IMG/VR virus record: IMGVR_UViG_3300033149_002731
Location: 1 to 44,599 of that record
DNA length: 44,599 nt
Direction: 5' to 3' (one strand)
Origin: a virus
Part shown: in pieces, positions 1,550 to 24,244 of the stretch
Position numbering within the stretch: position 1 is the stretch's first letter
Layout of the letters: every line of letters starts with the position of its first letter
Notes under the pieces: model-generated
Seen by the model: only the letters and a program-made list of their open reading frames with translations
Database searches by the model: none
What the model was told of the DNA's origin: nothing
Position numbers and translations under genes: made by a program

Positions 1550-1816
1550 TTATTTTCCTCCCTTTTTCTTTTTAAGCTCCTCCGGCTTAATTTTGCCTTC
1601 ATGCGCCTTCCCGTGACAATACACGCAAAGGTCGATCCTGTTCTCTTCCGTGTCCTCCCCGCCGCGCGATCTCGGTATGATGTGGTGTCTCTCGGTATAC
1701 CCTACTCTTCCGCAAAATTGGCAGTATGGGCTCGCCTTGCCCTTGAACCCTCGGCGTTTTTTCTTTTTGTAGGTGGGTTTGAGAACGGGATTGAAATTAA
1801 AGTCCATTTTTAACAT
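1550..1816 (-). CDS. Small HNH endonuclease with a structured RNA upstream
   Basis: An 88-residue stand-alone HNH nuclease. After a basic N-terminus (KKKKRRGFKG) comes YCQFC (C32, C35), RHH (H44, H45), N59 and CVYCHGKAH (C64, C67, H72), a complete beta-beta-alpha-metal fold with a second zinc site. The frame stays open to 1957, but the upstream codons run through a chain of perfect hairpins, so I take the ATG at 1816 (or 1807) as the start. The ribosome site is weak. The organisation, structured RNA then HNH ORF, recalls HEARO/omega-RNA elements, but no RuvC or PLMP part is present. It is probably a selfish homing-type element inside the late operon. Confidence 0.75.
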   Translation of the reverse strand: MLKMDFNFNPVLKPTYKKKKRRGFKGKASPYCQFCGRVGYTERHHIIPRSRGGEDTEENRIDLCVYCHGKAHEGKIKPEELKKKKGGK

Positions 1817-1831
1817 TCTTTCAAGGGTAAT

Positions 1832-1963
1832 GAAGCCGCCCCAGGTGTGGGCCAGGACGGCTCCTTCCACCGGTGGAAATTTTAGAGACGCCCTTATGGA
1901 CGTCGGGCCGGGGATGCTATCCCCGGTGCTGTTACAAACCCCGTGATTACTCACCAATCACGG
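1832..1963 (-). ncRNA. Structured RNA of five consecutive hairpins before the HNH ORF
   Basis: On the minus strand, five stems follow each other: 1941-1963 (8 bp, loop GGTGAGT), 1908-1926 (8 bp, loop AGC), 1887-1904 (7 bp, loop ATAA), 1865-1878 (14-base palindrome) and 1832-1864 (11 bp). Four of the pairs (1863/1833, 1857/1839, 1854/1842, 1900/1891) are G-U wobbles that pair only if the minus strand is the RNA; on the plus strand they would be A/C mismatches. This points to a selected minus-strand RNA. It ends 16 bases before the HNH start. I could not assign an Rfam family. Confidence 0.7.
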
Positions 1964-2161
1964 ACCTAATCCGGCTGGACAACGTTCTTTGTTAACCAAT
2001 TCCAACATGTATTCGTGCCAATTTGAAAGTATATGACTTTGGGAAATTATTGTAAGTTTTCCCTCGTACTCTCTATGTTGGTCTCGTATCAGCATAGCAG
2101 CCTGATCTTCATTGTTGGCAAAGATTCTGTTCTGGACGAAGTATCTCACCTCGGGGATCAT
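1958..2161 (-). CDS. Small late-operon protein; C-terminus may be altered by the HNH/RNA insertion
   Basis: A 67-residue protein of unknown function. Its ATG overlaps the stop of the preceding 55-residue gene (ATGA), so they are coupled. The body (to about residue 58) looks like an ordinary small alpha/beta protein. The last residues, RCPAGLGP, are encoded by sequence that runs into the first hairpin of the structured RNA and the stop codon lies in that hairpin. This suggests that the original C-terminus was replaced when the HNH/RNA element arrived; inference only. Confidence 0.55.
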   Translation of the reverse strand: MIPEVRYFVQNRIFANNEDQAAMLIRDQHREYEGKLTIISQSHILSNWHEYMLELVNKERCPAGLGP

Positions 2162-3331: not shown

Positions 3332-4030
3332 TTAAATCTCCTTCAAATGACGATCCTTCCACATAAGGATTCCGTCAAGTTGTTGTGCTCCAAGTTTATC
3401 AAATTCTGGATCAAAAAAGGTTGCAAACCGGGCCTGCTTTAATCCCTGTGCTTCAATATATTTATCATAAATAGAAGCATAAGGTAAGTTGTTTTTAAAA
3501 ATATAAGCCCAGACATCTTTATATGTCCAATCTTGAAGAGGCCAGCATTCCGGAATTACTGTTATGTTTTGCTTACTACGGATTCTTCTTTTTCTTTTAA
3601 GCGATTCTTCTTTTCGTATACCAACAAACGCTAAATCATATCCTTCTTTTTTAAGACACGGAATTAGCTTATTTAAATATTCCCTTCCTAAAACATTAAT
3701 TGCTAGCCGTTTCAACCTCAAGTATTCTTTTGATGTTTCCACTCGGACATTGGCACCGATTTTTCGTAAGTTGCTTAAAATTTCCTTATATAACCATCGC
3801 GGAATATAATACGGGCCATAATCCCAATGCAGAAACATAACATTAGAATTATGTTGCAATACTAAATGTGCCATTGCCGTACTATCCTTTCCACCAGAAA
3901 CAGCACAATAAGGTTTTTTTGCTTTTGCCAAAGCATTAGCAATTAACGCTTGTGTTATTTGAACTTTTTTTTTGTGTTCATCCATGTCAGCCCATTTTAT
4001 TAAAACTCTACGCCAAGTCTGTATGTTCAT
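3332..4030 (-). CDS. cysH: CysH-like PP-loop protein of the type IV-B CRISPR-Cas operon
   Basis: A 232-residue member of the PAPS reductase/ATP pyrophosphatase superfamily. SGGKDS (residues 45-50) is the PP-loop that binds ATP pyrophosphate. VGIRKEES and the C-terminal block CWPLQDWTYKDVWAYIF match the other conserved motifs of the family. The C-terminal ECGxH-type reductase cysteine of assimilatory CysH is not evident. Its ATG overlaps the csf3 stop (ATGA), so it is translated with the effector genes. Known type IV-B loci carry a cysH-like gene whose function is unresolved. The intact PP-loop suggests an adenylating or nucleotide-handling enzyme rather than sulfate assimilation. DndC-like proteins share the fold, but no dnd genes are present. 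Confidence 0.85.
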   Translation of the reverse strand: MNIQTWRRVLIKWADMDEHKKKVQITQALIANALAKAKKPYCAVSGGKDSTAMAHLVLQHNSNVMFLHWDYGPYYIPRWLYKEILSNLRKIGANVRVETSKEYLRLKRLAINVLGREYLNKLIPCLKKEGYDLAFVGIRKEESLKRKRRIRSKQNITVIPECWPLQDWTYKDVWAYIFKNNLPYASIYDKYIEAQGLKQARFATFFDPEFDKLGAQQLDGILMWKDRHLKEI

Positions 4031-4752
4031 TTCAAAACACACATTCCACCAGGCGGAACACATTCAGTAACATTGCGCGGATCCCAATATGGCGAACAAA
4101 AACTCATACTCACAACTTCTTCGTACCTAGCACACATTTGTATAGGAATAGGCCTCATGGCTCTCTCTTGCCAAATCAAAGACATATCTTCTTCTGTTTC
4201 TTCAATTTCCCAATCTCGAATCAGCCCAAACCCAATCCTAAAATCATTGCCTAGTCCAACAATTAACTCGTCTAACAATTTGCCAATAAAAACAATATCT
4301 CCGTTGCCAAAAAAGTTTACATAGCGAACAGCAAAAATAGGCTGCCGTAAAATGTAATCACGGAAATAACCCGATCCCCGATAAACTTTCTTCATATTAA
4401 GATTATCTGATCCACCTGTTTCAAATCGTTTATAAATATTTGTAGTTTTCACTGGCACGTCAGGTATAAGCTGTGAGACCGAAGCATGATATATGCTACC
4501 CGTTTTCTTAAACGGTAATTTCATCCATTTAGGCGGAAACTTAAGTATCTGCTTCTTCGGTAACAAAAAATATTCCTCGCCTAAGCCGTAAAATAAAAGT
4601 AAATGTGACATAAGCCCATCGAAATACATCCAGGGGTTTGTCAAACAAATTGGACTAGCTAATCGGAAAGTCAAACGAAATGGTTTAAAAATCCCCTGTT
4701 GTAACAAATCTTTTTTTTCTAGTAACTCCCAAAAATATTTTTGGTCACTCAT
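4027..4752 (-). CDS. csf3: Csf3, Cas5-like subunit of type IV-B CRISPR-Cas
   Basis: A 241-residue RAMP-type protein. The start FRLTFRLASPICLT resembles the first strand of a Cas5/Cas7 ferredoxin-like fold, and the end has the glycine-rich stretch NDFRIGFGLIRDWEIE found in RAMP proteins. Length, order and overlap match csf3 of type IV loci: it lies 2 bases after csf2 and overlaps cysH. In type IV complexes Csf3 takes the Cas5 place at the foot of the effector, next to the 5' end of the bound RNA. No Cas6 is encoded here, so the RNA would have to be processed otherwise. Assignment by fold-level pattern and operon order. Confidence 0.75.
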   Translation of the reverse strand: MSDQKYFWELLEKKDLLQQGIFKPFRLTFRLASPICLTNPWMYFDGLMSHLLLFYGLGEEYFLLPKKQILKFPPKWMKLPFKKTGSIYHASVSQLIPDVPVKTTNIYKRFETGGSDNLNMKKVYRGSGYFRDYILRQPIFAVRYVNFFGNGDIVFIGKLLDELIVGLGNDFRIGFGLIRDWEIEETEEDMSLIWQERAMRPIPIQMCARYEEVVSMSFCSPYWDPRNVTECVPPGGMCVLK

Positions 4753-4754
4753 GC

Positions 4755-5597
4755 CTACACCCGCTTTTCTATTTCATAAATTACACCCAAAATTTGTTCT
4801 TTGTTATCTCGCACAAATTGTAAATATTCATCGCCGGTATCGTTCATTTCGTACTGCAATTTAAGCTTCCCATCGCCACCCGCTGAACGGCTGCCAATAA
4901 AAGGTTCCTCTTTCCATAATTCAATTAAGCGAGCCAAGCAAGAAGCATGCAAATTATTTTTTATTTTCAAGGCCCAAGCATGGTAAAATTGCGTACCTAT
5001 TCCAAATGCTTCATAATCAACTTTCATTTGTACGGCTTGCTCTCCTTCGGTTCTTTCCGTTCGCAAATCATCTCGTCTAGTTAAAAACGCCCCGCCAATA
5101 AATTCCCGAACAGACATTTTTGCCCGAGGATTTTTTTGATAAACAGAAGAACTTGGAGCATAAAACGAATATTCTTCACAAATAGGCCACATATGCTCAA
5201 CAATCAAATTACCTTCAATTCCCTGATTACCAATTGAACATCCGAGCAAAGCTAACGGTAAAATCCATTTGTAAATCATTCGCCGAAATTCTAAATCAAT
5301 TGTTCCGCTTGCTCCTTCAGTACTTTCATACCCACCGCCACCTGAATTGAAAATATGGTGGACTTTTTTATGCTTACATTCATACCCTAAAATATCAAAA
5401 AATTCTTTTACCAATCTTCGGCGGTTACTGTTTCTTACTGAATTGCCCGAAATATAGGGAAAAGCAATAATCTGATCCAAGCTCTCAAGGTAAAGGGGTA
5501 TTGTTCGTAATATTGGAGTTGACCCCGTTTTTTCGTCACCACCTTGATGAATCGGAGCTACAGCGGTTAAAATTCCTTCTATTCTATATTTACTCAT
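4755..5597 (-). CDS. csf2: Csf2, Cas7-like backbone subunit of type IV-B CRISPR-Cas
   Basis: A 280-residue RAMP protein, the expected backbone. The N-terminus (YRIEGILTAVAPIHQGG) is a typical Cas7 first strand. GNSVRNSNRRRL is the post-strand helix; FNSGGGGYEST and GSRSAGGDGKLKLQYE are the glycine-rich loops of RAMP proteins. In type IV complexes several Csf2 copies line the guide RNA. A strong AGGAGG lies 9 bases before the ATG, which sits inside the end of the cas11 gene; this best ribosome site in the operon fits a subunit needed in excess. Confidence 0.8.
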   Translation of the reverse strand: MSKYRIEGILTAVAPIHQGGDEKTGSTPILRTIPLYLESLDQIIAFPYISGNSVRNSNRRRLVKEFFDILGYECKHKKVHHIFNSGGGGYESTEGASGTIDLEFRRMIYKWILPLALLGCSIGNQGIEGNLIVEHMWPICEEYSFYAPSSSVYQKNPRAKMSVREFIGGAFLTRRDDLRTERTEGEQAVQMKVDYEAFGIGTQFYHAWALKIKNNLHASCLARLIELWKEEPFIGSRSAGGDGKLKLQYEMNDTGDEYLQFVRDNKEQILGVIYEIEKRV

Positions 5598-5961
5598 TTA
5601 AAAATCCCTCCTGGTTTATTTTTTGTTTTTTCTTAATTTCCCTTAATTCTTTTGCTCGAATCACAGAAAGCATAGCATAAGCAACATGTTCCAAACGCAA
5701 GATATTTAAAACCCTTTTTTCGTTAAATCGTAACTGGTTAATTATTGGCACAGCGGCAATCGGTAAAGATTGTAATCCAAAAAAATTACATAACTTACTG
5801 GCAAATTGATTAATATTTGCTGCACTTGTTGCTGCCCTGATACGATGATTAAACACATCATGCGGGTTTCTTCCTCTCATGCGCTGCCAATTAATTTTGT
5901 TATAAATTAAAGCTAATAATTCTGTTACATCACTTTCCTCTTTTAGGGATAGCAAAGACAT
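5590..5961 (-). CDS. cas11: Cas11-like small subunit of type IV-B CRISPR-Cas
   Basis: A 123-residue, mostly helical and basic protein. Small subunits are too divergent to call on sequence alone; the evidence is its size, helical pattern and position between csf1 and csf2, exactly where type IV-B loci carry it. It starts inside the end of csf1 (32-base overlap) with AGGTG as ribosome site and overlaps csf2 by 8 bases. In the complex such subunits form the belly next to the backbone and stabilise RNA and target binding. Confidence 0.65.
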   Translation of the reverse strand: MSLLSLKEESDVTELLALIYNKINWQRMRGRNPHDVFNHRIRAATSAANINQFASKLCNFFGLQSLPIAAVPIINQLRFNEKRVLNILRLEHVAYAMLSVIRAKELREIKKKQKINQEGFLNE

Positions 5962-6604
5962 CGATCAACACCTCCCATAATGGATTTCCTTTATTTTTGC
6001 GAATTTCGTTTATCAATTTTAACTTTCCTGCCCGATATGCTTTTTTGCAATTATAAACATTCATATCACCCCTTAATGCTTTTTTGCTTATGCCTAGTTT
6101 TATTGCATTAACTATCAATTCCCAATATTTTTCCGCCTGTTTACGCTCAAACCAAATTGGAATATCAAATTCTTCATGTGCAAAATGATAATGGTCTTTG
6201 TTCCATGCAACTTTATGCAAACAAGCTAACCACCCTTGTTTTCTTCCTCCTGTCATTCCAGCCTTTCTAATATAAACAAAAAAGGGTGGTTCTGGCGGAT
6301 TAAACAATATTTCGCTTACTTCAGCACGCTCAAGAAAACACAGCTCTTTTGACACAACCCAACAATTACGACGAAATTCTTTTTGAAAAATAAATGCGCA
6401 TGATGGGCAAATACCATCCCCGGTAAACAATCTTCCCCAACCAGTAAAATTTTCAGATACTAATTCTTTCATTGATAAACCATTTTCCATTTTTAGTCCA
6501 CACATTACACAAATGCCATTTTTAGTTCCTTTTGGTATCTTTATCTCTTTGTTTTCTGGGTTTTTAGACTCGAATAAAAGTTTACTTAAATTCAATTTCT
6601 TCAT
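5930..6604 (-). CDS. csf1: Csf1, Cas8-like subunit of type IV-B CRISPR-Cas
   Basis: A 224-residue protein with the zinc finger expected of Csf1: C32-x2-C35 (GICVMCG) and C66-x2-C69 (GICPSC). Further on are PPEPPFFVYIRKAG and WLACLHKVAWN, then a basic C-terminal half. Csf1 is the signature of type IV CRISPR-Cas and takes the place of the large subunit. I use the ATG at 6604, preceded by AAGGGGGTG; the frame is open 13 codons further up without a better site. It is the first gene of the five-gene operon and follows the VRR-NUC gene by 16 bases, so it is probably transcribed from the phage early promoter. Confidence 0.75.
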   Translation of the reverse strand: MKKLNLSKLLFESKNPENKEIKIPKGTKNGICVMCGLKMENGLSMKELVSENFTGWGRLFTGDGICPSCAFIFQKEFRRNCWVVSKELCFLERAEVSEILFNPPEPPFFVYIRKAGMTGGRKQGWLACLHKVAWNKDHYHFAHEEFDIPIWFERKQAEKYWELIVNAIKLGISKKALRGDMNVYNCKKAYRAGKLKLINEIRKNKGNPLWEVLIDVFAIPKRGK

Positions 6605-6620
6605 CACCCCCTTATGTTTT

Positions 6621-6896
6621 TTATAAGTTTTCCACATCCTCAATCCCTCTCGCTATAACATACCTCCCACCGACAGCCTCCAAATCCGCTTGAAAAAGTT
6701 CCTGCTTTTCGCTCTGCCTGCCTTTCGGTTTTTTGATTTCGATATGGATGGCTTGTCCGTTTTTTATCGCCACGAGATCGCTTAGTCCCGGGTAACTACC
6801 TAGCGAAGCAAGGTTATAATACACGAAATAGCCTTTAAATCTTAAATAGTCTTGTATTTGCCTGCGAATATCAGTCTCGGTTATTTTACTTCTCAT
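6621..6896 (-). CDS. VRR-NUC domain nuclease
   Basis: A 91-residue stand-alone VRR-NUC protein of the PD-(D/E)xK superfamily. The active site reads G-x-S-D40, then E53-x-K55 in HIEIKKPKG and Q65. Phage members are thought to act on branched or flap DNA, like a Holliday-junction resolvase. The start at 6896 is fixed by the ATGA overlap with the preceding gene and GGAGGCGGG upstream. It is the last typical early gene before the CRISPR-Cas cassette. Confidence 0.85.
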   Translation of the reverse strand: MRSKITETDIRRQIQDYLRFKGYFVYYNLASLGSYPGLSDLVAIKNGQAIHIEIKKPKGRQSEKQELFQADLEAVGGRYVIARGIEDVENL

Positions 6897-23278: not shown

Positions 23279-23308
23279 CAAAAAAAATATGCCTCCCCGG
23301 AGGGAGGC
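23279..23308 (-). terminator. Terminator after the lysis genes
   Basis: GCCTCCC with GGGAGGC, 3-4 base loop, followed on the minus strand by ATATTTTTTTT, 28 bases after the amidase stop. End of the late operon. Confidence 0.75.
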
Positions 23309-23335
23309 GTAGGAAGGAGGAAAAAGGGGAAGGAA

Positions 23336-24244
23336 TTAACTTAACAGTTTTACTAATTCGCTAATTTGCTTTCCTATATTTTTACATTCATTTATGCGTT
23401 TTTCATATTGGCTTTTTTCTTCTTGAAGCCTTGTAATAATTTTACTATTTTCTTCACAGTTTATTTTGGTTAAAATAATTTCCCGTTTTACGGCAGCGAG
23501 TTCTGCTTCAATCTGGCTAGGTTTTTCCAGGAAGATTATATCTCCCCCGTATTCTGCGTAAATGTAATTCGGGTCTTGTATATGCTGGTTAACCGTCAGG
23601 AGTTCTTCTATATTTACCTCAGTTTTTTTGGCTATTCCGTGAAAGGAATCGCCCGGCTGCACTACATAATATTTGGTTTCGCCAACTTCCCTATAAGTAA
23701 CCTCCAAATATTCACAAGTTGTCTGAACCAAAACTTTGGCAGCAAGTTCTCTTAGTTCTGGAGTTTTCAGCTTAGCCACATCTTCTTTGTTCGTGTGGAA
23801 CCCTGTCTCAAAAAGAATGGACGGCATCTTGGTTTCCCTTAAAACATGAAAATTCCTTTCACGTACTCCCCTGTCGTTCATAGGGATCAACTCTTGACAC
23901 CATTTTAACCCTATTTGAGCAAGGGCAAGGTTGCGCCCAGGATAACAATAAACCCCAAAACCGTTGGGGGTTGTCCACTCTTTACCGTCTCCGTAAGCAT
24001 TGCTGTGTTGAGATATGAACAGATCGGCCTTAGCTTCGTTGGCGAACTTAACTCTCTCTTCAAGGCTAACGGGGAAATCACTAAAATTCTTCGTTTTAAT
24101 GCAGATAATCCCAGGAATCTTTTTAAGCATGGCCTCTGCTCTGTTGCAAACGTCCTGGTTAAATTCCCACTCGTAGTACGAACCGTCAGGAGAGCGGTTT
24201 ACCGATCTAAAATCATGGCCAGGATCAAGGCATACTATTTTCAT
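23336..24244 (-). CDS. N-acetylmuramoyl-L-alanine amidase with LysM, endolysin
   Basis: A 302-residue Amidase_3 endolysin. Zinc ligands H10 (LDPGHD), E25 and H80 (ISQHSN) and catalytic E146 (ILFETGF) are all present. A LysM domain (about 193-236, YYVVQPGDSFHGIAKKTEVN) binds the wall glycan. A C-terminal coiled coil (240-302) is unusual for an endolysin and may mediate oligomerisation. No signal peptide is seen, so it leaves the cell through the holin encoded by the overlapping upstream gene. Confidence 0.92.
   Translation of the reverse strand: MKIVCLDPGHDFRSVNRSPDGSYYEWEFNQDVCNRAEAMLKKIPGIICIKTKNFSDFPVSLEERVKFANEAKADLFISQHSNAYGDGKEWTTPNGFGVYCYPGRNLALAQIGLKWCQELIPMNDRGVRERNFHVLRETKMPSILFETGFHTNKEDVAKLKTPELRELAAKVLVQTTCEYLEVTYREVGETKYYVVQPGDSFHGIAKKTEVNIEELLTVNQHIQDPNYIYAEYGGDIIFLEKPSQIEAELAAVKREIILTKINCEENSKIITRLQEEKSQYEKRINECKNIGKQISELVKLLS

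Follow-up and report, generated by a model that had tools for sequence, protein, structure and literature searches.

A structured RNA and its HNH neighbour

The question raised by this locus is what a strongly folded RNA lying just ahead of a small HNH endonuclease gene might be, and whether that gene is its partner. The window, i.e. the whole 44.6-kb virus record that was analysed (classed in IMG/VR as linear), looks like a temperate tailed phage, judging from its predicted integrase, terminase, portal, major head and tape-measure genes, and its DNA is distantly similar to phages of Firmicutes. On the minus strand, the RNA locus is downstream of a regulator-like ORF (2484-2927) and upstream of another HNH gene (349-711), after which the terminase genes would come if the record were circular or permuted. 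This other HNH gene is of a kind found adjoining terminase genes and is kept in loci L083, L084, L087 and L111. The features of the locus are as follows.

1550-1816, minus strand: gene for an 88-aa free-standing HNH endonuclease (PF01844, E 1.3e-11), a neighbour of the RNA and no conserved partner
1832-1878, minus strand: hairpins H4 and H5, which separate the RNA core from the HNH gene, absent from aligned family relatives
1878-1941, minus strand: conserved RNA core from the family alignments, comprising 5' AACAGCACC, stem S1, CCC linker, stem S2 and UCU
1884-1904, minus strand: stem S2, GACGUCC-AUAA-GGGCGUC, then UCU; the window copy has no U-tract
1905-1907, minus strand: CCC linker joining S1 and S2, invariant in alignment A4 (it belonged to the search pattern, yet was already present in the first BLAST homologue)
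1908-1926, minus strand: stem S1, CCGGGGAU-AGC-AUCCCCGG
1940-1964, minus strand: upstream hairpin H1, which overlaps the 67-aa ORF at its stop codon, absent from aligned family relatives
1958-2161, minus strand: 67-aa ORF upstream of the RNA, sharing the reading frame of the HNH ORF, from which a single UGA separates it

The HNH ORF starts at the ATG at 1816 (or 1807), with its reading frame open to 1957. Readthrough of the UGA, which would join the 67-aa ORF to the HNH frame, was considered and set aside for want of homologue support, and a search of viral contigs returned no relatives of the 67-aa ORF. Further upstream, 2351-2424 on the minus strand combines a promoter-like site (TTGCAA-18-TATAAT) with a strong terminator-like hairpin no more than about 20 nt beyond it; the two may mark a very short RNA of its own ahead of the late genes. 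The adjacent 2435-2490 carries TTCCCGAAAAA/TTTTTTCCCG tandem repeats directly downstream of the regulator-like ORF, which are possible binding sites for the regulator.

An earlier note on this DNA had likened the layout to HEARO/omega-RNA plus ORF, and had proposed either a minimal RNA-associated HNH element or a group-I-like mobile RNA. The RNA does terminate shortly ahead of the HNH gene, and the only families matched by the 88-aa protein are generic HNH ones, in agreement with the observation that it lacks RuvC and PLMP parts; it is not a protein of the IscB type, in which PLMP, RuvC and HNH are combined. A dedicated search with RF02033 gave no match at E<=10, no Rfam family reached its gathering score, and neither HEARO nor any intron family appeared in the Rfam search at E<=10. 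Homologous HNH genes without the upstream structure, which the earlier note regarded as speaking against the pairing, are what was found, with the RNA present in 0 of 80 related-HNH loci by BLAST and covariance model. Conversely, relatives of the RNA have no HNH partner apart from one phage type (L136/L143). An RNA-guided HNH element or a group I-like mobile RNA is thus scarcely credible, and the simplest view of the adjoining gene is that it encodes an ordinary free-standing endonuclease of the homing type.

The window also encodes, at 3332-6643, a complete type IV-B-like CRISPR-Cas cassette (Csf1/Cas8, Cas11, Csf2/Cas7 and Csf3/Cas5 by PADLOC), followed by a CysH-like gene. Most of the 24 viral relatives of Csf2 have the same gene order, and in L111 the cassette is directly upstream of HNH-TerS-TerL. 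Virus-encoded type IV-B systems have already been reported (PMC10848311). A link between the RNA and this upstream cassette was rejected, as none of the 24 csf2-bearing viral loci carries the RNA and the RNA-bearing plasmids have no csf2.

The conserved two-stem RNA family

The earlier note described five stems in 132 bases, and these were recovered on the minus strand at 1964-1940, 1926-1908, 1904-1887, 1878-1865 and 1864-1832, all five appearing in both the minimum-free-energy and the centroid structure. The 137-nt fold has an energy of -63.7 kcal/mol, compared with -49.3 +/- 3.9 for shuffled sequences (z -3.75). Its G-U pairs are strand-specific as claimed, becoming mismatches on the opposite strand, and in a 160-nt comparison of the two strands the energy is -69.1 (z -2.98) for the minus strand, compared with -59.5 (z -1.65) for the plus strand. 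The stretch has the lowest energy among the contig's 1370 windows of 130 nt, with a z-score that is not unique, since 14 of the others score lower; folding alone therefore proves little.

Homology was more informative. The first homologue was a weak BLAST match on a Sulfuricystis plasmid, in which stems two and three recur with a compensatory change in the stems and an identical CCCGACG linker, and the family was gathered from this match by pattern and BLAST searches. An initial exact-pattern scan for the 5' linker gave no matches, and blastn for the family in E. coli genomes gave none. The members comprise about 20 virus contigs, a complete cyanobacterial (Dolichospermum) phage, and Thermus, Microbacterium and Sulfuricystis plasmids; one bacterial genome, G010, carries the RNA as well (E 1e-18), and several phyla are represented. 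They share a C-rich or ACAGC 5' end, S1, the CCC linker, S2 and UCU. Since conservation outside the window is confined to stems two and three, the unit measures about 64 nt, so that the hairpin unit of the earlier note stands as a real, strand-specific and covarying RNA while its 132-nt extent does not.

The linker and S2 were prescribed by the search patterns, which leaves S1 and the 5' segment as the only unbiased evidence; the second search pattern excluded the 5' strand of S1. Covariation, which the earlier note had proposed as a check on the RNA, is present in S1, where four of the eight pairs are changed on both sides across 23 members and 86% of cells are paired, and it held against both controls, shuffling and slid partners. 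The whole-structure covariation score is 0.327, compared with 0.158 when shuffled, and S1 and S2 together contain 37 cells with both-side changes compared with 11.5 in shuffles. Pairing stands at 92%, and sliding the partners lowers it to at most 48%. A leave-one-out covariance model (R3, built without the window) recovers the window copy at 45.8 bits, E 8.9e-13, and across 380 unrelated genomes the best unlinked matches of the covariance model reach 22-23 bits. Two of these weak genome matches (L165, L166; 22-23 bits) were dismissed as ordinary terminators without NYN, as was a second match within the window (23279-23339, 15.5 bits), which is an ordinary terminator after a gene with amidase-looking sequence.

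There is a weak possible second copy of the RNA within one phage (L135 2521-2593, 19.2 bits, E 0.008). In L125 and L127, a perfect GCCCCGCCGA/TCGGCGGGGC hairpin lies about 30 nt ahead, directly preceding the RNA, and its first 10 bases are common to the RNA's own 5' end.

Linkage to NYN ribonuclease genes

The conserved protein neighbour of the RNA is an NYN-domain (PIN-like) ribonuclease, PF01936, which the window does not have. On the Thermus and Microbacterium plasmids and in genome G010, a divergent NYN gene is within about 130 nt of the RNA. With plasmid-borne NYN homologues as the starting point, the RNA was found upstream of NYN on two Streptomyces plasmids (E 2e-8 and 2e-5), one of which runs promoter, RNA, terminator, NYN. 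Among 35 NYN-bearing viral contigs, the virus-classed contig L178 has a divergent RNA at the expected place (E 9e-4). NYN linkage thus holds for five of the six copies from bacteria or plasmids and for one viral contig, although two of those five were found from the NYN side and so do not sample the RNA copies independently; the exception is the Sulfuricystis plasmid, where NYN is not nearby. The acidic residues of NYN are invariant across the aligned proteins. The 5' segment of the window copy, AACAGCACC, resembles those of the NYN-linked copies in G010 (AACAGCCCC) and L178 (CACAGCGCC), and in Thermus and both Streptomyces plasmids the NYN-linked RNA has a well-placed sigma-70-like promoter ahead of it (p<=0.02), with weaker ones in L178 and G010. 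No Rfam family covers the members; this is an RNA family absent from Rfam that has a consistent protein partner, whatever role its phage copies play.

The layout upstream of NYN genes was examined in 29 non-redundant NYN genes, with 150 other ORFs from the same loci as controls. Under a strict test requiring a hairpin and a terminator hairpin with U-tract within 75 nt upstream, the layout is present in 18 of the 29 NYN genes and 5 of the 150 controls (p 4e-13), an under-count in that L168, L169 and L178 score zero because their RNA, found by the RNA model, is farther away or divergent. A terminator alone is upstream of 20/29 NYN genes, compared with 12/150 control ORFs. Most NYN genes have this layout without detectable RNA sequence similarity, the detectable RNA subfamily being a minority. 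The order RNA, terminator, nuclease gene is that by which type III toxin-antitoxin loci are defined (PMC5086642). In the open-access literature that was searched, no paper joined NYN with type III toxin-antitoxin. It is possible, in a tentative reading held at rather less than even probability, that NYN ribonucleases and their two-hairpin RNAs make up a type III-like system for defence or addiction, not described so far and carried by plasmids and phages, with orphan phage copies across many host phyla serving as RNA-based inhibitors.

Three E. coli and Klebsiella mini-plasmids of about 3.5-4.2 kb (L170, L173 and L174) have an NYN gene as their main cargo, with a terminator-like hairpin directly upstream, and offer a convenient laboratory model. 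Plasmid copies of the RNA in L152, L153 and L154 are within or beside defence islands of the DUF1156/helicase/DUF499 type. The DUF499-type island was rejected as the partner, eight further plasmid islands being without the RNA.

Orphan phage copies and known parallels

In a whole-record profile search, no NYN gene was detected in any of the 21 virus records that carry the RNA, among which are the window and the complete Dolichospermum phage, with the proviso that the roughly 20 known RNA-bearing phage contigs are mostly fragments and an NYN gene could lie beyond the contig ends; the positive controls (Thermus, Microbacterium and L178) were all three matched. Most phage copies have no recognisable promoter (p 0.48 for the window), so that they probably ride on read-through transcripts. 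Many lie at gene ends with a U-tract, several of them after structural genes and ending UCUUUUU, while several others, the window's among them, have no U-tract, and some come immediately after another terminator-like hairpin. In L145 and L147 the RNA is directly upstream of a TerS-like gene.

The preferred reading, to which we would give somewhat less than even probability, is that the window RNA is an orphan phage copy of an NYN-partner RNA, derived from a type III-like module, and that the phage copies act as decoy antidotes. Such a module would consist of a promoter, a short structured RNA, a terminator and the nuclease gene, or of an RNA divergent from the gene. The RNA would probably bind and restrain the NYN nuclease, which would itself act against phages, and a phage that expressed the RNA without the nuclease could bind the host NYN and keep it neutralised during infection. 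By analogy with pseudo-ToxI of phage PhiTE, a precedent for a decoy against ToxIN (PMC3475682), the phage copies would then be RNA decoys; active forms of pseudo-ToxI arose as laboratory escape mutants (PMC3475682).

The association of the RNA with NYN would also fit if the RNA served the nuclease as cofactor, guide or substrate, or acted as a sensor that activates it when lost; the phage copies would then be a competitor, a trigger or a mark of immunity. RNA processing is within the reach of NYN enzymes, and a CRISPR-associated NYN ribonuclease is described in PMC11346440. This explanation is nevertheless considered unlikely, as the order RNA, terminator, nuclease is the defining type III antitoxin order (PMC5086642). 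We also regard as rather unlikely that the phage copies amount to no more than a conserved intrinsic terminator or a stabiliser of 3' ends, swapped among mobile elements without any phage link to NYN. The copies ending UCUUUUU after phage structural genes, and the scarcity of promoters, are consistent with this, and a terminator role would be enough for the many U-tract-bearing copies at gene ends. However, terminators need neither an invariant GGCCCGACG nor a covarying second stem, the copies lacking a U-tract or directly following another terminator-like hairpin are not readily accommodated, and ordinary terminators score 10-23 bits with the covariance model compared with 45.8 for the window copy.

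A decayed remnant of a lost NYN/RNA module, now inactive, would account for the lack of an NYN gene, promoter and U-tract in the window, but both stems, the linker and the 5' segment are intact and the same orphan state recurs in about 20 unrelated phage contigs, making this improbable. The location of the RNA, which in the window lies downstream of a gene related to a regulator-like ORF of L111 and precedes the packaging genes, and in L145/L147 is directly upstream of the TerS-like gene, would suit an antitermination RNA of the put kind that heads the late operon and acts on RNA polymerase. The plasmid members, however, are short RNA genes that either converge on the next gene or bear no relation to it, and the linkage to NYN would be left unexplained, so that antitermination is very improbable.

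If the decoy reading is true, the NYN nuclease class joins the RNA-neutralised toxin systems, and natural, wide-ranging phage RNAs may disarm a defence by mimicry, pseudo-ToxI being the comparable case. An unannotated 64-nt phage sequence thereby becomes a directly testable prediction.

Among known systems, HEARO/omega-RNA with IscB (RF02033) resembles the window in that a structured RNA is directly upstream of an HNH-coding ORF, but differs in that neither sequence nor structure matches, RuvC and PLMP are missing, and HNH is not conserved as the partner. The DUF499-centred BREX-related loci (PMC12839542) are similar insofar as the Thermus, Microbacterium and Sulfuricystis copies are in or beside helicase, DUF1156 or DUF499/Swt1-type islands, whereas most examined plasmid loci of this type have no RNA and NYN is the closer partner. 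Type III systems (ToxIN, CptIN, TenpIN, AbiQ) share with the NYN loci a small structured RNA, a Rho-independent terminator and a nuclease gene, and an occurrence on plasmids and phages; the NYN loci differ in having an NYN/PIN-like nuclease (PF01936) in place of the ToxN fold, a single two-hairpin unit (by inspection) in place of tandem repeats, and in some loci a divergent RNA. Relative to pseudo-ToxI of PhiTE, an expanded repeat, the window RNA is a single copy belonging to a different RNA family with a different nuclease and a putative decoy role, but in both cases the phage holds only the RNA half of an RNA-nuclease module.
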